Below, piece after piece: positions 6,383 to 52,986 of a stretch of DNA of 64,000 nucleotides. The translations under genes were made by a program, and so were the position numbers. This stretch comes from Zingiber officinale (taxonomy: Eukaryota > Streptophyta > Magnoliopsida > Zingiberales > Zingiberaceae): contig NC_055992.1 in NCBI RefSeq assembly GCF_018446385.1, forward strand, positions 98,722,947 through 98,786,946, given 5' to 3'. The number at the start of each line of letters is the position of its first letter. Positions within the stretch are counted from its first letter, which is position 1. The notes beneath the pieces were generated by a model that saw nothing but the letters and a program-made list of their open reading frames with translations, was not told the DNA's origin and ran no database searches.

Positions 6383-7025
6383 TTCACCACCTAGCTTCAC
6401 TCACTAGGCTTACATCACCTAAGGTTACCTTCTCCTAGAATTTCCACCGCCTAGCTTCACTCACTATGACTTACCCTTGCTTAAGTTAGGACTTTTACTA
6501 GTCATCTAGTCCTGACTAACTTCTCTCTTCTAAACATTAAGTCATGTTTGGATAAACCCTTGGTCAAATTGACCAGACTTAGGTATATTATCAAACATCA
6601 AAACCCTGGAAGCTGATTGCACCAATAAAAACTAGGTACGAAAGTCCTGGTGAGTGAAGTTGGGCCCTAGTGAGTGAAGCTAGGTAGTGGAAGTCCTGGT
6701 GAGTGAATCCAGACCCTACTGAGTGAAGCTAGATAGTGGAAGTCCTAGTGAGTGAAGTTGGGCCCTAGTGAGTGAAGCTAGGTAGTGGAAGTTCTAGTGA
6801 GTGAAGTCAGACAATGAAAGTCCTAGTGAGTAAAGCTAGGCATTCCTAGGGGAGGTAACCTTAGGTAATATGTGATCGACTGGTTTCCAGTTGACCATGT
6901 ATGGTCGATCGAACTAGCAAATTATTAATAATGCTAACACTGTTTTATCTTTACCATTTTATATCTATTGTTCTAACTTAGTATTGTAGGCAAATCTTAG
7001 TAGATCAGCTTTGTCATATACTAAG
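6383..7025. mobile_element. Head-to-head LTR fragments with 'gtgagtgaag' repeats
   Basis: Two pieces of one LTR family meet head to head near 6630. The left arm reads on the minus strand and contains the family start motif TTGGTGCAAT (plus ATTGCACCAA at 6618). The right arm reads on the plus strand with five or more copies of GTGAGTGAAG flanked by short complementary stems. The block GGTAACCTTAGGT occurs in the right arm and, inverted, in the left. The family resembles the LTRs of the element at 45463-52028. The right edge is cut by the Tat-type insertion at 7026. No gene seen. Confidence 0.6.
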
Positions 7026-10619: not shown

Positions 10620-11970
10620 TCACAATATTGAACTTTCGGCCAAGTGTAGATGAAAGACCTAGGAAAGCTTAAGACCTAAACTAACCATGTTCACTATATC
10701 CCCATTATATGTATGCTATGATAGGAGATTGGTTTGGTGTTCTTATGCTTGTATGTTGCTTAAATCTTAATTTCATGCTCCTAAGGTGTTCGGCCAAGAC
10801 ATGAATAAAAGGTTTAGGGAAGTTCAAGACCTAAATAAGCATGTTCATTATGTTCTTATGATAAGTACCCTAGTATAGGAAGCTAGTTAATGTTCTTATG
10901 TTGTATGATTACTTAAAACCTAGATCTATGATTTTGAACTTTCGGCCAAGTGTAGATGAAAGACCTAGGAAAGCTTAAGACCTAAACTAACCATGTTCAC
11001 TATGTCCTTATGATATGTATGCTATGATAAGAGATTGGTTTGGTGTTCTTATACTTGTATGTTGCTTAAAACTTAATGTCATACTCATAAGGTGTTCGGC
11101 CAAAACTTGAATAATGGATTAGGAGAGGTTAAAAATTTAGGTTATCATGCTCATGACCTTCTTTATGAAATGGTATGAAAGATTGTAAGTGTTTGCATGC
11201 TTGTATGTTGTTGGAACCTAGTGGTATTACCTATAGGGTTTCGGTCATGATGGGAATGAAAGACCTAGGAGAGCTTAAAACTTAGTCTAACATGTTCATG
11301 ACTCTCCTTAGGATATGATATAAAGCTAACTTAGGGTTATCATGTTTTGATGTTGCTTGAAATCTAGACACATGTTTCTTTATGGTTCGGCCATGGTGAA
11401 TTTTAGTGTCCAAGGAAGCTTAAAAATTTAACCTAGCATGCTCATGAATCCCCTTATGATATGATATGAAGTTAGCTAGATATTCATGCTTGTATGTTGT
11501 TTAGAGCTTGATTTCCTCTTCATGAACTTTCGGCCATGATCAAGTTTAGGGTCCAAGGAAACTTAAAAATTAAACCTAGCATGCTCATGAATCCCCTTAT
11601 GATATGATATGAAGTTAGCTAGATATTCATGCTTGTATGTTGTTTAGAGCTTGATTTCCTCTTCATGAACTTTCGGCCATGATTAAGTTTAGGGTCCAAG
11701 GAAACTTAAAAATTAAACCTAGCATGCTCATGAATCCCCTTATGATATGATATGAAGTTAGCTAGATATTCATGCTTGTATGTTGTTTAGAGTTTATTTT
11801 CCTACTTCATGAACTTTCGGCCATGATAAGGATCAAGACCTAGGAAAGCTTAAAAATTGGATTAACATGTTTATGGCTTTCCTTATGATATGATATGAAG
11901 TTAGTTTGATATTTATGCTTGTATGTTATTTAGAGTTTAAGTTCATACTCTTTGAGCTTTTGGCCATGAT
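10620..11970 (+). repeat. Satellite-like tandem array inside the chromovirus solo LTR
   Basis: About nine or ten copies of a unit of roughly 130-160 bp, marked by TTCGGCCA and AAACCTAGCATG-like blocks and GATATGATATGAAGTTAG. Two neighbouring units (about 11533-11664 and 11665-11796) are almost identical, so amplification was recent or is ongoing. The array makes this LTR longer than the related one at 2127-4874. Confidence 0.8.
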
Positions 11971-13309: not shown

Positions 13310-13513
13310 GTCCAGACAGGTCGACGGGTTGACCGGATGTCTGACACGAAGTCCAAGCGGGTCGACGGGCTGACCGGATGCTTGGCAAGAAGTCTAACTA
13401 GGTCGACGGGTTGACCGGATAGCTGGCGAGAAGTCCAAGCGGGTCGACGGGCTGACCGGACGCTTGGCGAGAAGTTCAGACGGGTTGAAGGGCTGACCAG
13501 ACGTCTGGCAGAT
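13310..13513 (+). repeat. Array of five 41-bp hairpin units in the Copia-type LTR
   Basis: Five units of about 41 bp begin GAAGTC or GAAGTT. Each has an inner GGTCGACGGG(T/C)TGACC-like stem and outer arms that pair within the unit: CAGAC/GTCTG, CCAAGC/GCTTGG, a partly paired CTAACTA/TAGCTGG, CCAAGC/GCTTGG and CAGAC/GTCTG. Arms differ between units but remain complementary. The array lies about 400 bp upstream of the TATA box. Confidence 0.8.
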
Positions 13514-25537: not shown

Positions 25538-26446
25538 TGTTGAAACCCTAAGGTTGTTTTGATGTGATCAACAAGTTAAGTTAGGTCCTGTCGTGTTTTT
25601 AACTTTGTGTCTAAGTGTGCAGGAGCTTAGGAGCACAGGGAGTCGAGTAAAAGACACAGCTAGCAAGAAGGACGGCACGGGAGGGAGCCGACGGGCTCAG
25701 TGCGTCTGAGGTACGAGGCGTTGCGGAAGAGTATGCGGGCGGACGAGAAGGAGGCATGCGGCGTTTCCGAGGAACAAGAAGCCGGAGCGGAAGGTTGCTC
25801 GAAAAGGTCGAAATTGGGTTTGGGTGAGTCTTATTTCGGTTGGCTGAAATCACCCAAGTAAGTGGAACCGGAGCGGAAGACCCGGACCGAGACGAGCAGC
25901 ACCGGAGCAGAGGGCCCAGACCAAAAAGTCAACTTGGTTGACTTAGTGGTCCGGGCTCCCGGATCCATTCCAGGCGGCCGGACTGTCCAGGCGCCTGGAA
26001 CCATTCCAGGCGCCCGGAGTTGGACTTTATCCAGATCATGGTCAAACCTCGATCCGTGCGTCGGGAATAAAGTTTTATCCCCCCAGGGCCCCCGGAACTC
26101 TTCCAGGTGCCCCGACCAAGGCTATAAATATAGTCTTGGTCTAGAAGCTTCAAATCAACTCAAGTAATTCATTTCCAACACTTGTACGCTTCATTTCTAG
26201 ATTAGCTTCTTTGTTTTTGCACTTCACTACTGTAAGAGGCTTCTTCGCCTGAAGGAGTATTTAGTGCTACACTTTCTTTAGATTAACAACCTCCCCGGTT
26301 GTAACCAAGTAAAAATCCTCTTGCCTCTTCTTTCTGTTCTGTTTAGTTAATTTATTTTATACAAGTGTTATTCTATTGAAAGTTTGAGAATGGTTATTTT
26401 TTTAGGCTATTCAACTCCCCTTCTGGCCGGCCCCAGCGGTCCAACA
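25538..26446 (+). repeat. 5' LTR of the gag-only element
   Basis: Starts TGTTGAAACCC, ends GGTCCAACA. U3 contains a 9-bp-stem hairpin (GGCGCCTGG, loop AACCATT, CCAGGCGCC at about 25990-26014) and related motifs. The TATA box lies in a 28-bp inverted repeat (26114-26141). Confidence 0.93.
26114..26141 (+). promoter_or_regulatory. TATA box held in an inverted repeat
   Basis: GACCAAGGCT and AGTCTTGGTC flank ATAAATAT, pairing at 9 of 10 positions. The sister 3' LTR has the perfect version (29311-29338). Confidence 0.75.
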
Positions 26447-26500: not shown

Positions 26501-27930
26501 ATGATGGCCGGACCGAGCATATACTCGCCGAAGTTCGAAGGGGAATTAGCTACCTGGAAAAGCGAATGCAGGTATTTTTTAAAACTGATTTTGATTTAAT
26601 ATTAATTATGGAATTCAGTTTTACAGCGCCGGAAGGTAAGGAGAAATACCACTTGACGAAAAAGGAGCAGGCCGACTACATGGCAAACGGTAAAGCAAAG
26701 TACTATCTGCTAAGCGTTCTTTTGCCACAAGAAGTCAACCGAATCGGCAACTACGACTCCGCAAAGGAACTTTAGGAGAAGTTCCTTGAGCTGCACAAAG
26801 GAACATCCAAAGCCAAGCTCGCAAGACGGGATCTACTTCGCAACCAGCTTACCAGCATGTAACTTGGAGAAGACGAAACAGATGCACATTTGCACTCGAA
26901 GATTAAGGAAATCATCACCGGACTTTCGAATCTTGGAGAGACGGTAAGTAACCGAGATTCGCTAAGGTACGCACTAAATTCTTTTCCTAGAAATTCAAAA
27001 TGGGCGTCACTAATAGATGCATTTTATATTTCAAAAGACTTAGAAAAAATTACATTAGAAGAATTATTTTCTACATTTGAAGTGCATGAATCAAGATGTG
27101 CAGGTATGAAGGAGCCCAAGCACAACGTCACCTTCAAAGCATCGAGAGACGAATATGAGTCAGAGTCTTCTCTCGACGACGAAGAAATGGTTATGATGGT
27201 AAGACGTTTTAAGAAATTTTGTAAGTCTAGAAATACTAACTATCCGCAGGGTAGAAAAAAAGGACGATCCGCTGCTACCACTGTAATGAAGAAGGGCATG
27301 TCAAGGACAACTACCCCAAGCTAAGGAACAAGGACAAAGGTAAGAAGCCTGTCCAAAAGTGCAAGGTCTTAAAGGCGACGTGGGATGATACGTCGTTCGA
27401 ATCGGAAGTCGAGGCCTTCTCCGGACTTGCATTATGGCAAGTCATTAAGACGATGATTGCGAGTCAAGCTCTTCCGAAATGAGCATCGAGAACATCGATG
27501 AAGGGGGAGCTACATCGGAAGAAAGTAGTAGTTCAGGGGGAGACACGGAGAACGAGATCGACAAGGTAAGTCAGGTACGATCTCTTTCTCCCGATAAACT
27601 CTTTAAGTTTGTTAAATTGTTAACTAAAGACTGTTGTAAGTTAGAAAAGGAAATTAAAAATTTAAAAGTAATTCTAGCTAAGTCTTGCCCATTGAAGAGT
27701 TAGACAAATTAAAATTAGAAAATAATAATTTAAAAATGTAAATAAATAGTCTAAAAAATCATGCATGTTCAAATAAAATATATTTTAGAAAATACAACAA
27801 TTTAAATTGGTACTTTCAATATCATTAGGGATAGATTAGAAATATTTCAAAGAAATACGTCCCTAAGAAATTCCTAGTTAATCCAGTAGGTCGGAACCTA
27901 TATTGGGTTCCTAAGTCTTGTTTAACCTAA
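26501..27930 (+). pseudogene. Copia-type Gag remnant
   Basis: From ATG 26501 the frame is broken early. A recognisable Gag core follows at 26566-26775 (NYDSAKEL) and 26890-27324 (IKEIITGLSNLGETVSNRDS, EKITLEELFSTFEVHESR). The zinc knuckle at about 27268-27315 reads Cys-X2-Cys-X4-His and then Tyr where the fourth ligand, Cys, is expected; a frameshift lies just before it. An acidic, serine-rich segment with a short coiled-coil stretch (27479-27703) comes next. The remnant ends at 27930 with KFLVNPVGRNLYWVPKSC, a motif that in Copia polyproteins precedes the protease. No pol follows. Confidence 0.85.
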
Positions 27931-28769: not shown

Positions 28770-29650
28770 TGTTAGAACCCCAAGGTTGTTTTGATGTGAT
28801 CAACAAGTTAAGTTAGATCCTGTCGTGTTTTTAACATTGTGTCTAAGTGTGTAGGAGCTTAGGATCATAGGGAGTCGAGCAAAAGACGCAACTAGTAAGA
28901 AGGACGACACGGGAGGGAGCCGACTGGCTCGGTGTGTCTGAGGTACGAGGCACTGCGGAAGAGTACGCGGGCGGACGAGAAGGAGGCGCGCGGCGTTTCC
29001 GAGGGACGAGAAGCCGGAGCGGAAGGTTGCTCGAGAAGGCCAAAATTGGGTTCGGGTGAGCCTTATTTCGGTTGGCTGAAATCACCCAAGCAAGCGGAGC
29101 CGGAGCGGAAGACCCAGATCGAGGCGAGCAGCACCGGAGCAGAGGGCTCAGACCAGAAAGTCAACTTGGTTGACTTAGTGGTCCGGGTGCCTGGATCCAT
29201 TCCGGGCGCCCGGAGTTGGACTTTATCCAGATCACGGTCAAACCACGATTCGTGCGTCGGGGATAAAGTTTTATCCCCCCTAGGGCACCCGGAACTCTTC
29301 CAGGCGCCCCGACCAAGGCTATAAATACAGCCTTGGTCCAGAAGCTTCAAATCAACTCAAACAATTCATTTCCAATACTTGTACGCTTTATTTCTAGATT
29401 AGCTTCTTTGTTTTTGCGCTTCACTGTTGTAAGAGGCTTCTCGGCCTGAAGGAGTATTTAGTGCTACACTTTCCTTGGATTAACAACCTCCCTGGTTGTA
29501 ACCAAGTAAAAATCCTCTTGCCTCTTCTTTTTGTTCTGTTTAGTTAATTTATTTTATGCAAGTGTTATTCTATTGAAAGTTCAAGAAGGGTTGTTTTTAT
29601 TTTTTTTAGGCTATTCAATCCCCTTTCTAGCCGGCCCCAGCGGTCCAACA
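28770..29650 (+). repeat. 3' LTR of the gag-only element
   Basis: 881 bp, partner of 25538-26446, starts TGTTAGAACCCC and ends GGTCCAACA. It lacks one hairpin unit of about 28 bp present in the 5' LTR. Confidence 0.93.
29311..29338 (+). promoter_or_regulatory. TATA box in the loop of a perfect 10-bp inverted repeat
   Basis: GACCAAGGCT (29311-29320), loop ATAAATAC, AGCCTTGGTC (29329-29338). The arms are exact reverse complements. Confidence 0.85.
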
Positions 29651-30770: not shown

Positions 30771-31229
30771 ATGGCCAGATCTAGCATTCACTCGTCAAAG
30801 TTCAAGGTGGAGTTCGCGATGTGGGAAAAAAATGAATGGAAGTATTCTTTAAAACAAACTTTGAAAGTATTTTAATAATTAAATATGGTTTTATAGCATC
30901 TAAAGACACGGAGCTGAAAAAGAAGAATACTTGTGGACCAAAAAGGAACAAGCTGAATTCATGGCGAACGGCAAAGCAGAGTTCCATATGTTGAGCATTC
31001 TTCTTCCCCAAGAAGTCAATCGGATCGGCAGTTACGACTCAGCTAAAGAACTTTAGGAGAAGTTTCTAGAGCTGTACGAAGGGACCTCAAAAGCTCAACT
31101 CGCAAGATGGGACTTGCTCCGGAATCAACTCGACAACCTTTAGATGGAAAAGGAAGAGATGGTAGCTCATCTACATGCAAGAATCAAGGAGCTAATCACC
31201 GGATTAACGAACCTCAGAGAAATGGAAAT
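30771..31229 (+). pseudogene. Gag remnant, part 1
   Basis: From ATG 30771, related base by base to the gag at 26501. Stops and frameshifts include a TAG within the conserved AKEL-ekfLEL region (about 31054). It is cut at 31229 by the Tat-type insertion and continues at 40954. Confidence 0.8.
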
Positions 31230-32176
31230 TGATCATGTCCGAAAGTCGAAGAGATGAATGCTGGGGACATGGTGCTTCTGCTGACCTTCTGTGGACTTTG
31301 CTCCCACCTGCAACACAAGCAGCGTCAGTGCCGAGCCAGGGAAGGGGTCCCCGACGATGACCCTCCGACATTCAAGTCAGTCTCCAGCTAAGCAAGATGA
31401 AGAAGAAGAAATGAGAACTCTAGTGCAACAATAGAAATTGTGTGTCAAACATACCTCCGCCGATGCTTGGACCCCCTTTATATAGAGTTTCGGAAGCGCG
31501 TGTGCACGCTTCCCAACGTGAACATGCCTCTCAAAGCTTTCACTGAAAGGACATGTCAGTAAAGTGTCCCTGACATAGTACCTTAATGGGTCGGGCATAT
31601 CTCTGAAGTGACAGTGGAAGCTTCTGCCGTTTGATCCTCTGTCTGACCATGATACCTGTCAACGACACTATCTCCCAAAAGGATATCGAAAGATACTGCT
31701 GTGTCCGCTACTTGACCGAGCGGAATAGTCGCTTGACAGGAAGTCCACTGCCCATGTATTGTTTGTTGTTAGGTCAAGCGGGATAACCGCTCGTCCGGAA
31801 GTTCAATGCCCATGCACCATCTGCTGTCGGACCGATCGGGATAGTCGCTCGGTCGGAATTCCTCTGTCGTCTGTCGTTGGCTGAGCGGGATAGCCACTCG
31901 GTCGAAAGCTCACTGTCCGCATACTCGGCTGATGTTGAGTATACTGCTCAGCCGAGCGGGGTAGCCGCTCGACTCAACTTCTGTACGTCACTCTCCCTTA
32001 AGCGTCGGGTATTTGAATGTTGTGTCAAAGTTGTCGTCGGATCAGAGCCCTCGCCCTGATCGAGGAATGTTTCGCCCGATCGACAGATGCCATCCACTCC
32101 TAGACCATCTTGACTTTGACCTCCTTTGACCTCCATCGTGACAGCGAGGCGGGGCGCCCTCATCATCACTGAATCA
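31230..32176 (-). repeat. 3' LTR of the second Tat-type element
   Basis: Plus-strand limits TGATCATGTCCG and CTGAATCA. Matches 39984-40953 across its length. A series of GAGCGGGATAGCCGCTCG-like palindromic blocks lies at 31700-31980. Confidence 0.88.
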
Positions 32177-32226: not shown

Positions 32227-33508
32227 TGTTGGATCGAGAAGCGCAAAAGGGGGGTGAATAGCGCTCGTGGCTATTTCGTTCAATTTAAAACACTCGAGAT
32301 AATAAACGCAGCGGAAAAGAAAAAAACATAATCAAACGCTAACACAGGTTGTTTACTTGGTTCGGAGGCTGTGACGACTCCTACTCTAAGGCCCACGATC
32401 GTTGATCACTTCCGGTGGGAAACAACTATAAGCTCGAAAGATTATTACAAACTTATTACAATTTGAACTATAAAGAAAGCAATACCGACAACAAGAATAT
32501 CAAATTTGGAGTTCCGGGTCGTCGGGATGTTGCTACAGCACTTCGGGAACTTCTTGTTAGCAGCTTATCGCAGAAGGATCGCTTAGAATGTGTGTTGTTA
32601 AGCTGCTAGTCGAGACCCTCTTATATAGGGTGTCAAGGCGCCTCCATCACACTTCAAGGCGCCTCCAACTTGAAGTTTGATCCCCAAATCCACTCTACGA
32701 TAAGCCTCTGGTCACTGCCCATTATCCATCTAAAGACGCCTTCAACGCCACTCCAAGGCGCCTCCAAGCAGCAGTCCAAGGCACCTCCAAGTCCCATGGA
32801 GGCGCCTCCAACTCCTTGCCGCAGACAGCTTCCGCCTTGTACCCAAGGCGCCTCCAAGTTCCATGGAGGCGCCTCAGATACTGTTCATCCGAGGTGTGAC
32901 TTGCTCCTTTGTTTCTGCAAAATGTGTTAGTCCCAAACACATACCCTGCAAAACAAAGTTAGCACATAATAGTCATAGTAAATAAAATATTGACAGTCTC
33001 CGAACTGTCTGGGTCTAACTTCGGATTTCCTACCAAAAATCCTAGGTCGACCCGACGCCTACTGTTCCCTCTGCGGGGAACGCGTCCTCACCTACTCCAC
33101 TCAGGAGAGTTACCTGTTGCCAGTGCGATCCTCCAGATTGACTGGACTTTTGCTCAGTGCTCGATGCTTTTGGACTTTTGGCTGGACGCCCGCTCCCCGA
33201 CCCGTCCAGTCTTCCACCTGGTTCGCGACACCAAGACTTTCCACCTAGGGTTACCAACCCCTAGGACTTTTGCCTGAAGCCCTCGACCCGCCAAGACTTT
33301 CCGCATAGGGTTACCTCCCCCTATGACCTAGGGTTACCACCCCCTAGGGTTTTCTACCTGCCTAACCGCAGCTAGGACTTTTGCCTAAGTATACTTAGGA
33401 CTTTCCTGCAAGCTTATTCAAACTGTTAGAAAACAAGTAATCTTAACTTTGAATCCCTTTGCCATATCAAAACTTGGGTTCGATCGTCGGATGCTTCCCG
33501 CACCAACA
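32227..33508 (-). mobile_element. Copia-type solo LTR, minus orientation (TSD GACTG/GACTA)
   Basis: The plus strand reads from TGTTGGATCGAG to GCACCAACA, which on the minus strand gives TGTTGGTGC...CTCGATCCAACA. This is the same terminal style as 9788-14284. Flanks are GACTG (32222-32226) and GACTA (33509-33513); comparison with the first Tat-type element shows GACTA was the original target. A GGCGCCTCC/GGAGGCGCC hairpin array (32637-32880) lies upstream of the TATA box (TATATAAG on the minus strand near 32630). No internal region. Confidence 0.85.
32637..32880 (-). repeat. GC-rich hairpin array in the solo LTR
   Basis: Repeated GGCGCCTCC and GGAGGCGCC blocks form hairpins with 9-bp stems. 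The clearest is at about 32846-32876: GGCGCCTCC, loop AAGTTCCAT, GGAGGCGCC. Another near 32778-32808 has one stem mismatch. Confidence 0.8.
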
Positions 33509-39266: not shown

Positions 39267-39983
39267 TCAGTCACACTCGACGTCCCATTGAAAATTTATA
39301 GCTTGGCACAGTATCTTGAAGAATGGCAGGCTTCGATCAGACGACTTGGATATGAACCTGGATAGCACCGTGATCCGACTAGTCGGCCTTTGGGCTTCCT
39401 TCAAATTTCGAGGCAGAGGCATGTTCTGCAAAGCTTGGACCTTGTTTGGATTGACTTCGATGCCCCGCTCGGTTACGATGTAGCTCAGGAAGCGTCCGTT
39501 CTTTGCGCCGAACAGACACTTGCTCGAGTTTAGCTTTATTCCGTATATCCTTAGGTCCGGCAAGTCTCGTCGATATCTGTGCATAGGTCATCAGCTCGGA
39601 GGGATTTAATCAGTATGTCATCGACATACACCTCCATATTATGGCTGATCTGCCGTCGGAATATCTTATTCATTAGCCTCTAGCAGGTGGCTTCGACGTT
39701 CTTCAGCCTGAACGACATGACGTAGTAGTATGTCCCGTCGGCCGTGATGAAGCTGACCTTCTCTTGATCCTCCCAGGCGAGCGACACTTGGTGGTACCGT
39801 TGATAGGCGTCGAGCATCCATATGAGCTCGCAGCCCGCCGTCGAGTCTACCATTTGATCTATCCTGGGCAGGGGATAGAAGTCCTTTGGGCAGACCTTAT
39901 TAAGATCGCGGAAGTCGATACAGACCCGCCATTTGTTGTCCGTCTTGGAGACTAGCACAACATTAGCTTGGAAAAATGGTAAT
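39267..39983 (-). pseudogene. RT remnant joined directly to the LTR
   Basis: The frame 39958-39680 begins MLVSKTDNKWRVCIDFRDLN and includes FITADGTYYY. The YVDD-type box is near 39630, and 39584-39267 carries FLSYIVTERGIEVNPNKVQA. The N-terminal RT codons run straight into the LTR edge at 39984, marking a deletion of everything between LTR and RT. Confidence 0.85.
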
Positions 39984-40953
39984 TGATCCTGTCCGAAAGT
40001 CGAAGAGATGGATGCTGGGGATGTGGCGCTTCTGCTGACCTTCTATGGACTTTGCTCCCGCCTGCAACACAAGCAGCGTCAGCGCTGAGCCAGGGAAGGG
40101 GTCTTCGGCAATGACCCTCTGACGCTCAAGTCAGTCTCCGACAAAGCAAGAAGAAGAAAAAGAAACGAGAACTATAGCGCAACAGTAGAAATCGCATGTC
40201 AAACATACCTCCGCCGATGCTTGGACCCCCTTTATATAGAGCTCCGGAAGCGCGCGTGCACATTTCCTAAGGCGAGCATGCCTCTCAAAGCTTTCCCTAA
40301 AAGGACGTGTCAGTAAAGTGTCCCTGACACAGTACCTTAACGGGCCGGGCATATCTCTGAAGTGACAGTGGAAGCTTCTATCGTACGATCCTCTGTCTGA
40401 CCATGCCGCCTGTCAGGGACACTTGCTCCCAAAAGGATGCCGAAAGATACTACTGTGTCCGCTGCTTGATCGAGCAGAATAGCCGCTCGGTCGGCAGTCC
40501 ACTACCCGTGTACTATCTACTGTTAGGCCGAGCAGGATAATTGCTCGGCTGGAAGTTCAATGCTCGTGCACCGTCTGCTATCGAACCGAGCGGGATAGTC
40601 GCTCGACCGGAATTCCTCTATCATGATCTGTCGCTGGCCGAGTGGGATAGCCACTCAGTCAGAAGCTCACTGTTCGCATGCTCGTTTGATGTTGAGTATG
40701 TTGCTCAATCGAGTGGGGTAGCTGCTCAGTCGAGCGGGGTAGCCGCTCGGCTCAACTTCTGTACGTTGTTCTCCCTTGAGCGTCGGGTATTTGAATGTTG
40801 TGTCAAAGTTGTCATCGGATCGGGGCCCTCGCCCTGATCGAGGAATGTTCCACCCGATCGACTGATGTCATCCACTCCTAGACCGTTTTGACTATGACCT
40901 CCTTTGACCCCCATCGTGGTAGCGAGGTGGGGCCCCTCATCATCATCGAATCA
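39984..40953 (-). repeat. 5' LTR of the second Tat-type element
   Basis: Partner of 31230-32176. Plus-strand limits TGATCCTGTCCG and ATCGAATCA. Confidence 0.88.
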
Positions 40954-44873: not shown

Positions 44874-45462
44874 GTTTCACAACCCCGTCCATCCTATATT
44901 GGAGCATCATCAGAACATGGTCATCGAGGAAATCGTAAAATTCTCAAAAGCATAGGAATTCCTTTCACTTGGTCATCTAATGCTCCTCCTCCCCGACTAT
45001 GTATGTCTGGAACTCCGCCTCCTTATTCTCTATTTGATTTGTTTGGGTCTCCAATGCGACCTGCAGCGCTACCTTTAAAGCCTCAAAGCCCCTTGAGCCT
45101 CCAATTCGGCCTTCACTGCCTCAACCTCAGTTTTAGTAGCTCCCAACTCTGCCTGTAGAGATTCAAATTTCACCTTTGTTGCCTCTGCTTCAGCTTTGAC
45201 ATCCTCGAACTCCGCCCTCAAATTTTTAGACTCTGCCTTCCCCGGTTCGAATTTACCTTGACTACCTTTAGCTCAACGTTCTGAACCTCAGCCTTAACCT
45301 TCAATTCTTCTATTGTGGCTAAGGCCTTTCATCTTAGTTTCTTCTTCGCCTTTAGTGTTTTAATCAGACTCAGCAAGTTGGTCCTCGAAAGACTTCACCT
45401 CACCTTTGCCCTCGCTTAGTTCAAATTGTGTCAAACATAGTTCTGTCGAATGGCCCCTATAG
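44874..45462 (-). pseudogene. Degraded coiled-coil coding remnant in background DNA
   Basis: Read on the minus strand, about 45430-44985 translates in broken frames into a heptad-like, Glu/Lys/Ala-rich segment (for example VKAEAEATKVKFESLQAELG at about 45205-45145). It resembles the coiled-coil end of Tat-type antisense proteins, but identity is not proven. It is cut at 45463 by the next element; the sequence resumes at 52029. Confidence 0.5.
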
Positions 45463-45720
45463 TGTTGGTGCAACCTTAGGTCAAGGTTGACCTGGTTGAC
45501 TCGACTCGAGGTGACTTGACTCGAGTTGTATTTTGATGTTTGACTTGGGAAGATTGTCGGTGCAACCTTAGGTCAAGGTTGACCTAGTTGAGTTGCATGT
45601 TGATGTTTGACACTCGTGAGAGAGTTCTATTCTTGATATGGGACAAGAATAGATGTTTGGGAGATTATTGGTGCAACCGTAAGTCAAGGTTGACTTGGTT
45701 GACCTGATTCGGGAAAAAGT

Positions 45721-46376
45721 CCAAGTATGGAGACTTGGCACTGGAGAAGTCCAAGCAGGGAGCTTGGCACGTTAGAAAGTCCTGGTGAGTGAAGCCAGGC
45801 AGTGGGAAAGTCCTAACTGGGATGTTAGGCAGTTGGAAAGTCCTGGTGAGTGAAGCCAGGCAGTGGGAAAGTCCTAACTGGGATGTTAGGCAGTTGGAAA
45901 GTCCTGGTGAGTGAAGCCAGGCAGTGGGAAAGTCCTAACTGGGATGTTAGGCAGTGTGGAAAGTCCTGGTGAGTGAAGTCGGGCAAGGCAAAAATCCAGA
46001 TGGATCAAGGGTGATCGGACATCTGGTGGGAAAAGTCTAAGTGGGTCAAAAGGATTGACCGGACACTTAGCGGGGAGTGCTAGCAGGTCAAGGGAGTGAC
46101 CAGATGCTAGGGATGATGTACCAACAGGTCAAGGTTGACCGGATGTTGGTGTGGAAGCCTTAGGTTTAGGGCTGAGAAGTTTGGATCGGGCTGCAGACCG
46201 ATCCAATGATACATGGCTCATCTGATCGGTCTGGAGACCGATCAGAAGAAGATCAGTGGCAAACTAGCAAGAAGCCTGATCGGTCTACGGACCGATCAGA
46301 AGGTTTCCTGATCGGTCTGTGGACCGATCAGGAGGTTTCTGAAAGGCTTCTTCCCTGATCGGTCCACAGACCGATC
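45721..46376 (+). repeat. Array of about 17 hairpins with variable, self-complementary stems
   Basis: Successive units pair internally: CCAAG/CTTGG, CCAAGC/GCTTGG, CCTGG/CCAGG around loop TGAGTGAAG (three times), CCTAAC/GTTAGG (three times), a CCTGG/TCGGG unit, CCAGAT/ATCTGG, CTAAGT/ACTTAG, CTAGCA/TGCTAG and CCAACA/TGTTGG. Five 20-bp units follow at 46184-46376, four of them with GATCGGTC/GACCGATC arms. All lie upstream of the TATA box at 46442, so they are in U3 and would be transcribed only at the 3' end of the element RNA. Confidence 0.88.
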
Positions 46377-46441
46377 AGGGTTCTAGCCGTTGCGACGCAA
46401 CGACTAGTTTCTTCGCTGTTTCGCTGTTTCTTCTTCGCATG

Positions 46442-46448
46442 TATAAAG
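46442..46448 (+). promoter_or_regulatory. LTR TATA box
   Basis: TATAAAG follows the hairpin array by about 65 bp; the matching site in the 3' LTR is near 51473. Confidence 0.7.
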
Positions 46449-46963
46449 GGGTCGAGGGCTGCTGCTGTACAGGAACTCTTGTTCTTTCTTTCCTCTCTTC
46501 TGCTGAAGATTTGTGGGCTGCGATAAGAGCTCTGTTGAGTTCTGCTGCTGTTAGGGTTTTTGAAGCTGCTGCTTCATCCGGACTCCAGTCGATGAAAAAG
46601 CAAGATTGGAAGAGTGCTTGTGTATTCTTATTGTATTTCTTGCTTATTCTTTGTACTTGTACTCCTGTTTGTTGTTGCAAACAAGTGTGGCGAGGTTTCT
46701 CCACCCAGAAGGAGTTTTTATTAGCCGATTTTCCGGGGACTCATCCACCGACGGATTGATTGGGTTCGTCCACCTTACGGACACGCCGAGGAGTAGGAGC
46801 ATCATCTCCGAACCTCGTACATCGCTGTGTTAAGGTTTGATATTCTTCCTTTCGTTTCTAGTTTATTTTTCCGCTGCGCTAACGAATTGTAGGAAGAAAC
46901 GAGCGATTTGGGGTCGGCTATTCACACCCCCCCTCTCTAGCCGTACGAAGAGATCCTAACAAG

Positions 46964-46975
46964 TGGTATCAGAGC
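46964..46975 (+). other. Primer-binding site (initiator Met tRNA type)
   Basis: TGGTATCAGAGC two bases after the 5' LTR, as at 26449-26460. Confidence 0.9.
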
Positions 46976-47022
46976 AAGGCCGCTCTTCGTCGGATCAACA
47001 TCCGTGGGAGCAAAGCTAGAGA

Positions 47023-48486
47023 ATGGATCTCTATGGAGAAGACATCACCATTCCACCCTTCTACGAATGCGGCGACTTCGCGTATTGGATGGTAAGGATG
47101 AAGTACTTTCTTATGACTAACATAGTGAATTGGTTTTGTGTACAAGAAGGTTTTACTCCTCCGGTGGATAAGGAAGGAAAACCACTTGAGAAGAAGGAGT
47201 GGACAAGAGAACAAATTCACAAATCCGAAATCAACGAAGAGGTAACGAGAATAATTGAATTTTCATTGCCTACTAACATCTTGTGTAAGATAGGTTACAA
47301 CAATGCCAAGGAATTATGGGATAACTTGGCCAAGTTCCATGAGGGAAGCTCAAATTCAAGCCATGAAGAGGAGCTAAGTGAGCCAAGTAGCTCACATCAT
47401 GGAGGAGAAGATTTAGAAGTTGAGGGTCACTCAACATCTAAAGAAGAAGAGGAGGAGAGTTCCTCTTCAAGATTGGAGCAAGAAGAAGAAGCTTCTACCT
47501 CCGGAAGGGATGAAGATGAGAGCGGTCATCCATCCTCAACCCTAGGTAACTCAAGCATTTTAATTTCTAGCAAATTACACATAATGTGCTTCGAGTGTAG
47601 GGAATTTGGGCACTACAAGAGCAAGTGTCCAAAGAGGGTTAGAAAGACTCCACCGGCACCAAAGGTCAAGGAAGCCGGCGTCCCAACACGCAAAGGCAAG
47701 AAGCACGTGGTGTGCTTTCAATGCAAGCAACGGGGACACTATAGGAGCCAATGTCCGAAGGGGAGGAAATCTCACAAGGACAAGGGATGCACATCGATAG
47801 GGGGAGCTAAGGCAAACCCTAAGGTATCTTTTAAGGCTCATTCGTGCAATTCTAGTAGGATACATGCTAGTAATTTTATTGCATTAGTCAATAATGATAA
47901 GCATGTTAACACTAGAAATCAATACATGTGCTTAGGTGCTAAACATGTCAACCTAGATAGGGATACTACTAGGAATGCTAACCCTAGGATTAACACTTCT
48001 AAGGTTAAGGAAAACCTAGGTAGAAACCCTAAATCAACTAGACACATGCCTAGGAACACCTCAAGAAAGAATGACAAATCAAAACTTGAGGTAATAGAAA
48101 AGGAGAATCAAGTCTTGAGGTCAAGGCTTGATACCCTAGAAAAGGCCCTTAAAAATTTAGAGAAGTCAACTCTAGGGCCTAAGGGTCAAAAGTCCCAGGA
48201 CAAGAAAGGTTTGGGTCACAAATCTAAGTCCCAAGTGGTCAAGCCCACTTACCACAATGTTCCATTCGATTATGGAACAAAACCTAGGGCTAGGAAGACC
48301 ACCACCAAGGTCACAAGGGGAGTCACCCCTAGAGTTGATCTTGATGAGTCCCAAATGACCAAGGCTTCAAAGCCTAAGAGGGTCATTAGGAGGGTTGCTA
48401 GGGAAGTTATCCCTAGTGAATTTTTAGTGAACCCAATGAGCTCAAATAGGTATTGGGTTCCTAGGAGCATCTTCTCTACCCCATAG
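47023..48486 (+). CDS. gag: Gag protein of a gag-only Copia-type element (487 aa)
   Basis: A complete frame from ATG 47023, 48 bp after the primer site, to TAG at 48484-48486. Residues 1-110 are a Copia-type Gag N-terminus (FAYWMVRMKYFL, NAKELWDNLAKFHEG) but short compared with usual Gags: most of the UBN2-like core after LAKFHEG appears missing. An acidic Glu/Ser-rich linker (about 110-180) follows. Two CCHC zinc knuckles, CFECREFGHYKSKC (about 188-201) and CFQCKQRGHYRSQC (about 230-243), have all ligands. A basic, coiled-coil-like region (about 340-390) comes next, and the protein ends near SEFLVNPMSSNRYWVPRSIF. That motif normally sits just before the protease in Copia polyproteins, and here the stop comes right after it. 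It should bind and package RNA; enzymes would have to come from another element. Confidence 0.85.
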   Translation: MDLYGEDITIPPFYECGDFAYWMVRMKYFLMTNIVNWFCVQEGFTPPVDKEGKPLEKKEWTREQIHKSEINEEVTRIIEFSLPTNILCKIGYNNAKELWDNLAKFHEGSSNSSHEEELSEPSSSHHGGEDLEVEGHSTSKEEEEESSSSRLEQEEEASTSGRDEDESGHPSSTLGNSSILISSKLHIMCFECREFGHYKSKCPKRVRKTPPAPKVKEAGVPTRKGKKHVVCFQCKQRGHYRSQCPKGRKSHKDKGCTSIGGAKANPKVSFKAHSCNSSRIHASNFIALVNNDKHVNTRNQYMCLGAKHVNLDRDTTRNANPRINTSKVKENLGRNPKSTRHMPRNTSRKNDKSKLEVIEKENQVLRSRLDTLEKALKNLEKSTLGPKGQKSQDKKGLGHKSKSQVVKPTYHNVPFDYGTKPRARKTTTKVTRGVTPRVDLDESQMTKASKPKRVIRRVAREVIPSEFLVNPMSSNRYWVPRSIFSTP

Positions 48487-50476
48487 ATGGGTTAGAGAGT
48501 GTCAACTCCGATTAGAAGGGTAGTTAACCCAACTTTGAGGAAATTGACACTCAAGGAGCATTTTCAATGTTTTGAGAACTTTTGAAAATGAAATGGAATT
48601 ATCATTTACTCCTTTGAAGAGTTAAATGTGCCTAAAGATTGGAAATTTTATTTTTAATCTCAATTGGCACAATTTGGGAAAATCTAGAGAACTCTCGAGG
48701 AAAAATGAAACATGCCAAGTTTTGAGGATAAATTTGATCTTTAAGTGGCATGAATTAATCTAGAGTTCAAGAAGTGTCAAAATTAGGATTTTGGCATCTT
48801 GGGGGCAATCTAGGATTAAATTTGAAGTCAGCCAAGTGGTTAAGGATACTTAGATAGGTAATCTAGGTATATTTATTTATGCTAAATCTTGCCATGATTG
48901 TTTGCCCTCACATGTCATGACATCATGTTTAGTTTTATCATCATTTGAAATGTCATGATAATGTTTAGGCTAGTTTTTATGTCATGTTTATTTAAGTTTC
49001 AAACTTTATGCCATGACATCATGACATTGGCACATGTTTTCATTTATGATATCATTTTATGTCATGTCATCATCTCTTGCATTAGTAATCAATTGAATTG
49101 ATTTAAGGATGAAAAACACATTTTGATATTGAGATCAAATTTGTGTTTAGAAAATGCATGAGACCTTAGTCTAAGATACCTAAACCCATATCTCACATCA
49201 AAATTGACATGGATGTGTTTGATACACTTTAGATGTGTGTGAGATATTAGGATCATGAGTTAGGATCAAGGTGCATAGTTCTTGTACCTAGATGAGCCTA
49301 ATTCAATAAATGGAGGATCATAGGGAAAACTTGTATACAAGTCATGTACATATAGTCCTAAGATTATGATCCTAAATTAAAGGGTTTAAAATCATTTCAA
49401 AATTGATTTGAAAAACCTTGATGAAGCTTTCCTAGTGATTGCATTCATCATTGATCATTGTGATACAAAGTTGAGTTAAACTTGAACTATTTCAAAGTTT
49501 TTGAACTTTGTATCAAGATTGAAAAATGGAAGTTATTTTCATATAAAACTATTTTTCCATGATAGTGTATGATATGAGGAATGTAACCTCAAAGTTTCGT
49601 AATTTTTGGAATTTTCTTGAATTTATTAGGAGTTTCTGATTTTCCGGAAGGGGAAATCAGAAGTTCTAATTTCAGTGGCTGGATCGGTCCGGGGACCGAT
49701 CCAGGGAAGATCTGATCAGTCTGCGGACCGATCCATAGAGTTTGGACCGATCCAGTGAGTTCCAGTAGCACGAGTGCGATCTGGTGAAGGGCTGATCGGT
49801 CTGGGGACCGATCAGGGCGTGCCGAATTTCTGATTTTTTAGCTGTTGTCTGAAATTTCAGTTATGGAAGTAGTGTTTTTGGATTTCTAAAGGTTTGGAAC
49901 TCTCAAAGACATTGTTGGTGCAATGGTCAAAGGGGGAGTTGACCTTTAGGGGGAGTTTTACCTAATTGTCAAGGGGGAGTTGACTTTTAGGGGGAGTTTT
50001 TACTCCTTAAGACTTTTGAGAATTAGTGATATGGGATTATCACTAAGTTGATTGTTGAGTTTAGTATCAAGGGGGAAATTAAGAGTTTCAATGAAAGGTA
50101 TGGGACTTTCATTAGGAAGAAACTCTTGACCTTGATACTCTCCTTTTTCTTTTTGATATGTGTCAAAAAGGGGAGAGTGTTCATTGGAAAATTATTGGAG
50201 AACCCAAGTTAGGTTATCGGGTTAACCTAAGCTAGGGGAAGAATGTCAAGGAATGTTCAAGGAAGAACATTGGAATTCTTTTTGATGTGTGTCAAAAAGG
50301 GGGAGAATTATTGGAGAACCCAAGTTAGGTTATCGGGTTAACCTAAGGGGAGAATGTCCAGAGAATGTTCAAGGAAAGAACATTGGACATTGGAAGATGG
50401 TTGGAAAACCTAAGTTAGGTTATCGGGTTAACCTAACTTGATTATGGGTTTTGTCAAACATCAAAAAGGGGGAGAT
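48487..50476 (+). other. Non-coding 3' region of the gag-only element
   Basis: About 2 kb without coding potential. Notable items are three GATCGGTC-type hairpins (49682-49701, 49714-49733, 49794-49813), GGGGGAGTT repeats at 49930-50000, three copies of TTAGGTTATCGGGTTAACCT (about 50210, 50324 and 50416), and three polypurine-like tracts at about 50165, 50292 and 50463-50475. The last abuts the 3' LTR. Confidence 0.8.
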
Positions 50477-52028
50477 TGTTGGTGCAACCTTAGGTCAAGG
50501 TTGACCCGACTCGAGGTGACTTGACTCGAGTTGTATTTTGATGTTTGACTTGGGAAGATTGTTGGTGCAACCTTAGGTCAAGGTTGACCTAGTTGAGTTG
50601 CATGTTGATGTTTGACACTCGTGAGAGAGTTCTATTCTTGATATGGGACAAGAATAGATGTTTGGGAGATTATTGGTGCAACCGTAAGTCAAGGTTGACT
50701 TGGTTGACCTGATTCGGGAAAAAGTCCAAGTATGGAGACTTGGCACTGGAGAAGTCCAAGCAGGGAGCTTGGCACGTTGGAAAGTCCTGGTGAGTGAAGT
50801 CAGGCAGGGGAAAGTCCTAACTGGGATGTTAGGCAGTTGGAAAGTCCTGGTGAGTGAAGCCAGGAAAAGGACTAACCGGGATGTTAGGCGGTTAGAAAGT
50901 CCCGTGAGTGAAGCCGGGAAGTCCTAACTGGGATGTTAGGCGGTTGGAAAGTCCCGTGAGTGAAGCCGAGCAGGGAAAGTCCTAGGGATGTTAGGCAGGT
51001 GAAAGTCCCCGTGAGTGAAGTCGGGCAGGCAAAAATCCGGATGGATCAAGGGTGATCGGACATCCGGTGGGAAAAGTCTAAGTGGGTCAAAAGGATTGAC
51101 CGGACAGGCGGGGAGTGCTAGCAGTCAAGGGAGTGACCGGATGCTAGGGATGATGTACCAACAGTCAAGGTTGACGGATGTTGGTGTGGAAGCCTTAGGT
51201 TTAGGGTGAGAAGTTTGGATCGGGCACGATCCAATGATATGGCTCATCTGATCGGCCGAGACCGATCGAAGAAGATCGATGGCAAACTAGCAAGAAGTCG
51301 ATCGGTCGGACCGATCGGGTTCTGATCGGTGTGGACCAATTAGGAGGTTTCCGATCGGTCCATGGACCGATCGAGTGACCTTTCCTGATCGGTCTGCCCG
51401 ATCAGATGTTGATCGGTCCACGCATCGATCAGGTTCTAGCTGGCTAGTTTCTTCATTGTTTCTTCTTCGCAGTATAAAGGGGTCGAGGGCTGCTGCTGTA
51501 CAGGAACTCTTGTTCTTTCTTTCCTCTTTGAAGATTTGTGGGCTGCGATAAGAGCTCTGTTGAGTTCCTTCCGAAAGCTTCGCGTGAGCTTCCCCGACTG
51601 GAACAGCTGCTGCTGTTAGGGTTTTTGAAGCTGCTGCTTCATCCGGACTCCAGTCGATGAAAAAGCAAGATTGGAAGAGTGCTTGTGTATTCTTATTGTA
51701 TTTCTTGCTTATTCTTTGTACTTGTACTCCTGTTTGTTGTTGCAAACAAGTGTGGCGAGGTTTCTCCACCCAGAAGGAGTTTTTATTAGCCGATTTTCCG
51801 GGGACTCATCCACCGACGGATTGATTGGGTTCGTCCACCTTACGGACACGCCGAGGAGTAGGAGCATCATCTCCGAACCTCGTACATCGTTGTGTTAAGG
51901 TTTGATATTCTTCCTTTCGTTTCTAGTTTATTTTTCCGCTGCGCTAACGAATTGTAGGAAGAAACGAGCGATTTGGGATCGGCTATTCACACCCCCCCCC
52001 TCTCTAGCCGTACGAAGAGATCCTAACA
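50477..52028 (+). repeat. 3' LTR of the third gag-only element
   Basis: 1552 bp. The downstream part (from about 51480) is nearly identical to the 5' LTR apart from about 40 bp (51568-51607) absent from the 5' copy. The hairpin array (about 50725-51430) has many small deletions compared with 45721-46376. Confidence 0.95.
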
Positions 52029-52986
52029 TATAGTACTTTTCAATTGATTTTGTAAATATCTCATGTTAATTTTGATGTTGATCAACCAAGTTAAGTTAGG
52101 TTATATATATTTAATGACTTGTGTTTAAGTGTACAGGAACTTAGAAACACAAGAAGTCGAGCGGAAGATAGATCGAGCGAGAATGATGATACAAGAAGGG
52201 AGTCGATGGACTCGGCGCATCTGAGAGACGAGGAGCTGCGAAAAGTAAACCAACGGAGGGAGAAGGATGCAGTCCAAGGGAAGAAAAATAGGAGGAAATC
52301 TGCTCGAGAAGGTTAGAGTTGGGTCCAGTGAGCACAGCTCCAGACAACCGAAGCATCACCCAAGCGAGCGAAACTAAGAATGGTCAACTTCTGAGGCTGA
52401 CCACTGAGGCACCTCGGATGGCCCAGGGTACCTCTATTCCAGGCGCTTCAAATGGAGTTGAGGCATCTCGCATGCAGAGCTACTACGGATAACCACTGCA
52501 AGACTTAAGGCTCCTCTGATGAGCTGGAGAGACGTTGCATCGAGAATAAAGACGGAGTCGATTGGAGACGCTTTCAATGGCGACTGAGGCACCTCCAACA
52601 ATTCAGATCAGTGAAGAGGATAAAACTTTATCTAGTTGGTGTTAGTCTACGTTAGACCGGTTAGAGATGAGATAAATAGCCCTGAAACCTAAGTTAGAAT
52701 TTTCTCTTGCTTGAACTTGGCAAGGATACAAGTTAGTTAAGCATAAACAATTAGCATTAAAAAGAAATAACAACTTAGGGAAATGAGTAAGAGACACTAG
52801 AGATTACTTTGTTACAATCGGGAAGGTTGTTAATCCAAGACAGTTGAAAGCGCACTAAAGTTTTTCTTCGTTGAAGACGGAGAAATCTCTTACACTCTTT
52901 GATAGTAACTAGGAAGTTAATATAAAAGTTGTTATTGAATTCCTAACTCCAAGGTACTCTAACTTGAGTGTTAGAGTGGCTGAGCT
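52029..52986. mobile_element. LTR fragment with an inverted R-U5 part
   Basis: 52051-52690 reads as the U3 of the family at 29816 (start TGTAAATATCTC, AGATAAATAG box near 52670). From about 52693 to 52965 the sequence matches the opposite strand of the R-U5 part of that family (compare 44590-44820 inverted). The LTR was therefore broken and its downstream half inverted. No genes; short flanking sequence at 52966-52986. Confidence 0.65.

Follow-up and report, generated by a model that had tools for sequence, protein, structure and literature searches.

The closest described systems to the array reported here from ginger (Zingiber officinale) are compared as far as the excerpts of the cited papers describe them. 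In LTR elements such as tobacco Tnt1, U3 carries tandem repeats that lie, like the ginger array, upstream of the TATA box, and their role in transcription has been discussed (PMC3601003). The repeats described there are repeats of sequence, however, whereas the ginger cassettes have a fold and a frame in common while their stem letters vary (PMC3601003). The PPT-containing stem-loop of LTR elements is likewise a 3′-end structure around the PPT, but it is a single one in the known elements and ginger has a chain of many hairpins (PMC3601003). Tat/Ogre elements also have variable arrays at the non-coding 3′ end of their RNA, hypervariable tandem repeats of the untranslated region that have been proposed to originate in element replication. 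These lie downstream of gag-pol, inside the element, whereas the ginger array lies mostly in U3 and consists of hairpins (PMC7004042).

Short, repeated and structurally divergent hairpin families, as in ginger, are also formed by the repetitive hairpin elements of sponge mitochondria, for which the excerpt gives no known adaptive function. They are dispersed across mitochondrial intergenic regions, while those of ginger stand in tandem within LTRs (PMC2800124). Perfect stems, and stem differences that may reflect several simultaneous matched changes, are shared with RNA hairpins ascribed to template switching, although these were inferred from rRNA trees and the ginger hairpins from a treeless comparison of units (PMC8794818). 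Among the titles and abstract openings listed, from a set outside which most subscription journals lie, no hairpin array with covarying stems was found in the U3 of a plant LTR.

A Hairpin Array in the U3 of a Ginger LTR Element

The window, i.e., the whole stretch of 64,000 nucleotides that was analyzed (NC_055992.1, positions 98,722,947 to 98,786,946), contains on its plus strand an element, here called family 1, with a 5′ LTR at 45463–46961 (ends TGTTGG...CCTAACA) that has the hairpin array in its U3. The 3′ LTR of the same insertion lies at 50477–52028. The TSD TATAG (45458–45462 and 52029–52033) and the TG..CA ends of the LTRs mark the insertion as an LTR retrotransposon. By eye, a PBS-like AGTGGTATCAGAGC, which we presume to correspond to a tRNA, directly follows the 5′ LTR, and a PPT-like run AAAAAGGGGGAGAT directly precedes the 3′ LTR. 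The only plus-strand ORF of at least 80 aa between the LTRs is gag-like, with 487 aa and a zinc knuckle (47023–48486), and the element therefore looks non-autonomous (gag-only). Two ORFs of that minimum size, of 83 and 96 aa, lie on the minus strand, and the Pol of an autonomous copia element, with integrase before reverse transcriptase, was absent among the ORFs of at least 80 aa between the LTRs. A hairpin-rich, non-coding internal region on the plus strand (49679–50439) precedes the PPT and is continuous with the 3′ U3 in genomic RNA. Within it, at 50209–50439, three copies of a hairpin TTAGGTTA-TCGGGT-TAACCTAA stand immediately before the PPT. Elsewhere in the window, at 11386–11957, a 143-nt repeat is present in four tandem copies.

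The preliminary description had placed the array at 45721–46376, quoting eight stem pairs, all of which are found there. Counting non-overlapping perfect stems of at least 5 bp with loops of 3–25 nt, 16 inverted repeats lie in this segment; 200 dinucleotide shuffles gave 7.2 ± 2.0, with a maximum of 13. Its stem bases number 250, against 78.9 ± 22.1 in 200 such shuffles (maximum 140), and the RNA folding z is −7.65 on the plus and −10.83 on the minus strand (20 shuffles each). The array is thus real, unusual and more than chance. It is also wider than earlier reported, as hairpins start at 45471 and likewise occupy the internal stretch that precedes the PPT. Two peaks of inverted repeats, near 27881 and 42969, were set aside as A/T-rich DNA. 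A search of Rfam with 45400–52100 returned nothing at gathering score (the best of nine matches reached 34.3 bits against a threshold of 76), and no relatives were found in viral contigs, queried with one exact 21-mer, or in phage records.

Along the plus strand, the upstream part of the zone (45471–45720) adds five inverted repeats with stems of 6–10 bp, among them TCTATTCTTG/CAAGAATAGA. It is followed at 45721–45767 by a class C2 hairpin (CCAAGT-ATGGAG-ACTTGG) and a class C hairpin (CCAAGC-AGGGA-GCTTGG), and at 45781–45983 by alternating class A (CCTGG-TGAGTGAAG-CCAGG) and class B hairpins (CCTAAC-TGGGAT-GTTAGG) with a period of about 61, the final class A unit having the stem CCTGG/TCGGG. 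Next come four D-type hairpins (45996–46150; stems CCAGATG, CTAAGTG, CTAGCA and ACCAACA), which have an inner stem such as GGTCAA/TTGACC and, only on the 3′ side, an unpaired stretch of 3 nt (GGA or AGA). Five E-type hairpins with the core GATCGGTC/GACCGATC (46181–46376), the first with one mismatch, close the array. The TATAAA of the LTR at 46442–46447 lies 3′ of it, in agreement with the earlier statement that the array is upstream of the TATA box.

Related Arrays in the Window and in the Genome

Several other arrays occur in the window. A decayed plus-strand array with the TGAGTGAAG loop lies at 6643–6841; at 6666–6684 it does read CCTAG-TGAGTGAAG-CTAGG, the variant stem first reported, but a perfect 5-bp stem is present in only three of the eight plus-strand units of this piece. 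A family 2 LTR carries five D-type units on the plus strand (13313–13507), with one inner core and differing stems. On the minus strand, a family 3 array with an AAAGTC-type frame (33182–33400) includes CCTAAG/CTTAGG, CCTAGGG/CCCTAGG, CATAGGG/CCCTATG and CTGGACG/CGTCCAG, among others. The family F array, at about 40470–40749 of the plus strand, has a recurring stem like CCGAGCGG-GATAG-CCGCTCGG. It lies within a repeat pair (31217–32176 and 39971–40953, about 85% alike), and its second copy is at about 31716–31978. In another repeat family of the window, a TATA-like ATAAATA stands in a hairpin loop at 29311–29338 (GACCAAGGCT-ATAAATAC-AGCCTTGGTC), and the perfect stem is shorter in the partner copy at 26114–26141.

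Units of families 1, 2 and 3 have much the same frame, AAGTC-stem-loop-stem′-GG, which is loose in D3 (GAGTG) and D4 (GATGT). At least three ginger LTR families have a similar LTR start, two of these with PPT-like and PBS-like flanks; in family 2 the LTR starts with TGTTGGTGCGGTTAGC, and PPT-like or PBS-like flanks occur in several of 20 loci. A first look at the genome gave 5,409 candidates for family 1, 6,945 for family 2 and 5,546 for family 3, of which 40 each were scored. The copies discussed below were drawn non-randomly, from the 40 top-scoring places of each query, and represent 40 loci of family 1, 20 each of families 2 and F, and ten of family 3 plus its window copy. By our splitting rule, the 40 family 1 copies have between 13 and 27 array segments each. 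Four family 1 LTRs at G000 C21:24.026–24.043 Mb (L009, L020, L008 and L037) stand about 5 kb apart in the same orientation, with PBS-like and PPT-like flanks on both inner ones and the TSD CATAA at the outer ends, and are apparently a tandem multimer of the element.

Pairing Is Kept Between Units and Families

In eight D-type units from families 1 and 2, 55 of 56 pairs are Watson–Crick, and each of the seven pair positions occurs in at least two Watson–Crick forms. When the 3′ arms were permuted among the units, the true order alone of 40,320 gave 55 pairs (next best 53, mean 31.9), the units and their register having been chosen by us. The true order is also unique among 24 within each family, with 28/28 pairs in family 2 (next best 26) and 27/28 in family 1 (next best 22). 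Pairing in units of the same frame survives large stem changes, transversions included. The family 2 core GGTCGACGGGCTGACCGGA recurs with the commonest stems CCAGACA, CCAAGCG, CCAGCTA and CCAGACG, all perfect, and one loop of family 3 has two stems, CCTAGGG/CCCTAGG and CATAGGG/CCCTATG. A score of 60/60 for family 3 comes from 12 hand-picked perfect stems and is partly circular, so that it is not counted as evidence; in the tally of this family the u1 pattern matched nothing, and u5, u9 and u10 fall outside it.

In the E-type units, outward pairs 1–3 covary, with 85, 83 and 52 of 92 units paired against 60.4, 60.0 and 37.0 in shuffled sets, numbers that overstate independence since the rows share descent; pairs 4–6 are paired less than shuffled. 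The 92 are those of 106 distinct units that have at least six of eight core pairs, with 12 noisy loci left out. Altogether, the sequences give good evidence for covariation between cassettes and between families, and the array points to a kept fold rather than a kept sequence.

Change Among Copies of One Unit Is Mostly One-Sided

The first description held that the stems vary and stay complementary. This is borne out between units and families, as the D-type count illustrates, and it fails among copies of one and the same unit. Of the 34 types of stem change seen across the 40 loci of family 1, 33 affect one side only; the remaining type is two-sided, namely CCAAGC/GCTTGG to CCAAAC/GTTTGG in L010, L025 and L026. 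In addition, CCTAG/CTAGG is found in eight units of three family 1 copies, which the filter of that tally missed. Family 2, with units given to the nearest reference stem at up to four differences, has 36 one-sided and no two-sided changes, where 0.91 was expected (51 distinct units), and shows no restored pairs among its copies. Nor is there an excess of double changes in family F, which has 10 against 14.4 ± 3.1 in shuffled sets (88 distinct units, 20 loci); without a surplus of these, its array is a useful negative control. The excess of compensatory over single-sided change across copies that had been anticipated is thus absent. Few matched pairs would prove little anyway, because pairing is always restored when both sides of a pair undergo a transition. 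Per site, stems change more than loops in five of eight family 1 unit classes (A, C, C2, D1 and D2) and less in three (B, D3 and D4).

The LTR pair L013/L007 (TSD CTATT) differs by nine substitutions and no indels up to LTR offset 902. Beyond that offset it has three gaps (32, 34 and 33 nt), each roughly as long as a hairpin.

The 3′ LTR Array Probably Reflects Consensus Error

The array in the 3′ LTR of the window element (about 50769–51480) differs from that of the 5′ LTR by 26 substitutions and 30 indels, while the preceding 258 bp differ by one substitution and one deletion. This LTR pair has 0.73 gap openings per mismatch, against 0.00–0.20 among the other repeat pairs of at least 300 nt listed for the window. 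For 32 of the 38 array differences listed, the 3′ form was seen in none of 29 other copies, in a test by exact match with seven flanking bases, where adjacent differences inflate the zeros and the copies had been picked for likeness to the 5′ array. CTG/CAG is touched by 16 of the 28 small deletions in the 3′ array, where about 16% is expected. A similar lean is found in L020 (11/20), L030 (10/18), L031 (10/17) and L037 (7/15); the 19 copies with at most five small deletions have it in 5 of 39 altogether, and all 34 sequences together in 84 of 261.

Methylated CHG sites may disturb nanopore consensus. According to excerpts of the respective papers, the haplotype-resolved ginger assembly was made from nanopore reads and polished with Illumina data (PMC8342452), and CHG sites, to which CTG and CAG belong, are a methylation context in plants (PMC8514461). 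The differences of the 3′ LTR array are probably nanopore consensus errors, and the small deletions of L020, L030, L031 and L037 are perhaps of the same kind, in repeats that short reads could not polish. This reading is weakened by five deletion-rich copies that have no preference for CTG/CAG (L004 4/30, L010 0/11, L017 1/10, L039 2/13 and L040 1/11). Hypermutation of the array after insertion is disfavored, given the L013/L007 pair, indel-free to offset 902, and the CTG/CAG preference of the 3′ LTR deletions. Gene conversion of the 3′ array is likewise disfavored by the missing 3′ forms, in copies that were few and chosen by likeness. The CCCG/CGGG stem near 50893, which had been put forward as a paired change, sits in this probably corrupted array and is unsound as such. 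Consensus error at CTG/CAG could mimic compensatory change, and copies with many deletions of one or two bases at these sites matter for LTR dating in the ginger assembly.

Strand, Position and Acting Molecule

Whether the pairing acts in RNA or in DNA is a question on which the evidence is mixed. On the plus strand, G·U exceeds A·C in each class (13:9, 24:20, 81:67 and 21:11), in none significantly. The 81:67 of family F becomes 59:60 without the loop-adjacent pair, and class E, hand-added over all 106 distinct units, gives 24:20 without that pair and 36:21 with it. The lean to G·U may also reflect mutational bias, because C>T exceeds G>A per site in the inner core of family 2. Only three majority wobbles were found in the tallied unit classes, all of them G·T on the plus strand (the last class A unit in 40/40 copies, family 3 u2 in 8/10 rows and u7 in 6/9 rows), and no majority A·C pair. 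The predicted mean pair probability of the local hairpins is 0.39 for plus-strand RNA, 0.68 for minus-strand RNA, 0.62 for plus-strand DNA and 0.78 for minus-strand DNA. With a span limit of 60 nt the predicted values are 0.61, 0.65, 0.70 and 0.81, respectively, which narrows the gap.

The position of the hairpins was followed in family 1 copies with a TATA motif (21 of the 28 loci that remained after 12 noisy ones of 40 had been left out). Stems cover 35–93 nt per 200 nt upstream of the TATA box (5–16 in shuffled sequence) and 10–26 downstream of it (7–12 shuffled), where the first interval has 22 against 12 and the last 26 against 8. In 19 family 2 copies, stem coverage is 41–51 over the initial 500 nt of the LTR (9–13 shuffled) and mostly lower beyond; candidate TATA-like motifs lie at 475–478 and 715–734 in the three copies inspected. 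At the other end of the element, a comparison of all 40 loci of family 1 gave 34–70 stem bases per 200 nt (10–15 shuffled) over the 800 nt that precede the PPT in the 15 copies possessing one. The flanks of the 25 other loci, with 20–26, are below this. The corresponding region of family 2 has no clear hairpin enrichment in six copies.

Possible Origins and Roles of the Array

The reading that we prefer, though we put it slightly short of an even chance, is that transposing lineages keep cassettes that pair, whatever their letters, and that the likeliest site of this is the genomic RNA, at its non-coding 3′ end. In three or more ginger LTR families, U3 consists of tandem related hairpin cassettes, each with a frame near AAGTC, two matching stem arms on either side of a loop or inner hairpin, and GG; on this reading they are gained and lost as whole units. 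Lineages that still transpose would retain arrays whose cassettes pair, so that stems may drift in matched pairs while loops and frame remain alike; after insertion, the stems of a copy would decay on one side at a time. In genomic RNA, U3 stands immediately before R, and the U3 of family 1 extends the hairpin-rich stretch before the PPT. Such a chain of short hairpins may compact the 3′ end, serve packaging by binding Gag, or protect that end. What we infer is that the pairing is selected, that RNA is the molecule that acts, and that the fold has a function. This explanation is weakened because the strand leans are non-significant, the local hairpins are predicted least for plus-strand RNA and conservation is not generally better in stems than in loops. 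It is weakened further because the pre-PPT region of family 2 is not clearly hairpin-rich and the frame is loose in D3 and D4. A more ambitious version of it, which we regard as doubtful, is that ginger LTR families share an old, modular U3 code, a chain of hairpin cassettes with inherited shape and free letters. It would act by giving structure to the genomic RNA at its 3′ end, and every transposition would police the pairing as cassettes come, go and change their letters.

Perfect stems could also arise by templated copying, when one arm templates the other during reverse transcription or replication (quasipalindrome or template switch), and need no function in that case. Excerpts of two reports propose template switching as maker and keeper of RNA hairpins (PMC8794818) and as a process that homogenizes the arms of inverted repeats (PMC8604942). 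The commonest stems are almost all Watson–Crick, and cassettes that differ by a whole stem are easier to obtain in a single step. Yet the GGA or AGA of the D-type units is unpaired on one side only, so that the arms are not simply copied through, and family 2 copies show no restored pairs. Inverted loops, which may be a footprint of such copying, number 0 in families 1, 2 and F, against about 747 loops in the normal sense, with one substitution allowed and classes that may overlap. The five inverted loops of family 3 all stem from L011 and L064, which have the motif in that sense only, as would be expected if the array were on the other strand (in L064 it is the array that the window has on its minus strand), and loop inversion was rejected there. 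The one-sided GGA and the missing inverted loops in families 1, 2 and F together speak against frequent copying through the loop. Absent inversion is weak evidence in itself, however, because loop inversion with compensation was extremely rare in the template-switch study, as its excerpt states (PMC8794818). We consider templated copying rather unlikely as the source of the pairing.

A role at the DNA level, in the promoter-proximal U3, seems unlikelier still. It might be exerted by paired binding sites, by extruded hairpins, or by hairpins of single-stranded cDNA during reverse transcription. The inner GGTCAA/TTGACC resembles two opposed W-boxes, which would be putative sites of WRKY binding, and TTGACC is found in D2, in D4 and in commonest or minority forms of the family 2 cores. 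A sequence-specific factor should preserve the letters of the stems, though, and it is the letters that change and the pairing that stays; units of classes A, B and C and most of family 3 are without a W-box-like core. Hairpins become sparser at the TATA box of family 1 LTRs and beyond about 500 nt in those of family 2, a distribution that suits such a promoter-side role as well as the preferred reading, and the few wobbles and the best predicted folding, that of the minus strand as DNA, favor it. Least probable of all, and in our judgment unlikely, is that neither a function nor a special process is involved, and that palindromic cassettes arose by chance, multiplied in tandem and decayed neutrally, matched changes being coincident transitions. 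Family F, with one stem and no surplus of double changes, fits this account, as do the changes among family 1 and family 2 copies. It leaves unexplained the differing perfect stems around one family 2 core and the 55 of 56 D-type pairs, and is strained given the D-type permutation result.

If U3 keeps its pairing rather than its sequence, this part of the LTR, commonly regarded as a rapidly evolving enhancer, would have a structural role in the RNA or the cDNA. Numerous copies with dated LTR pairs would offer a natural experiment in ginger that sets structural selection against templated mutation.
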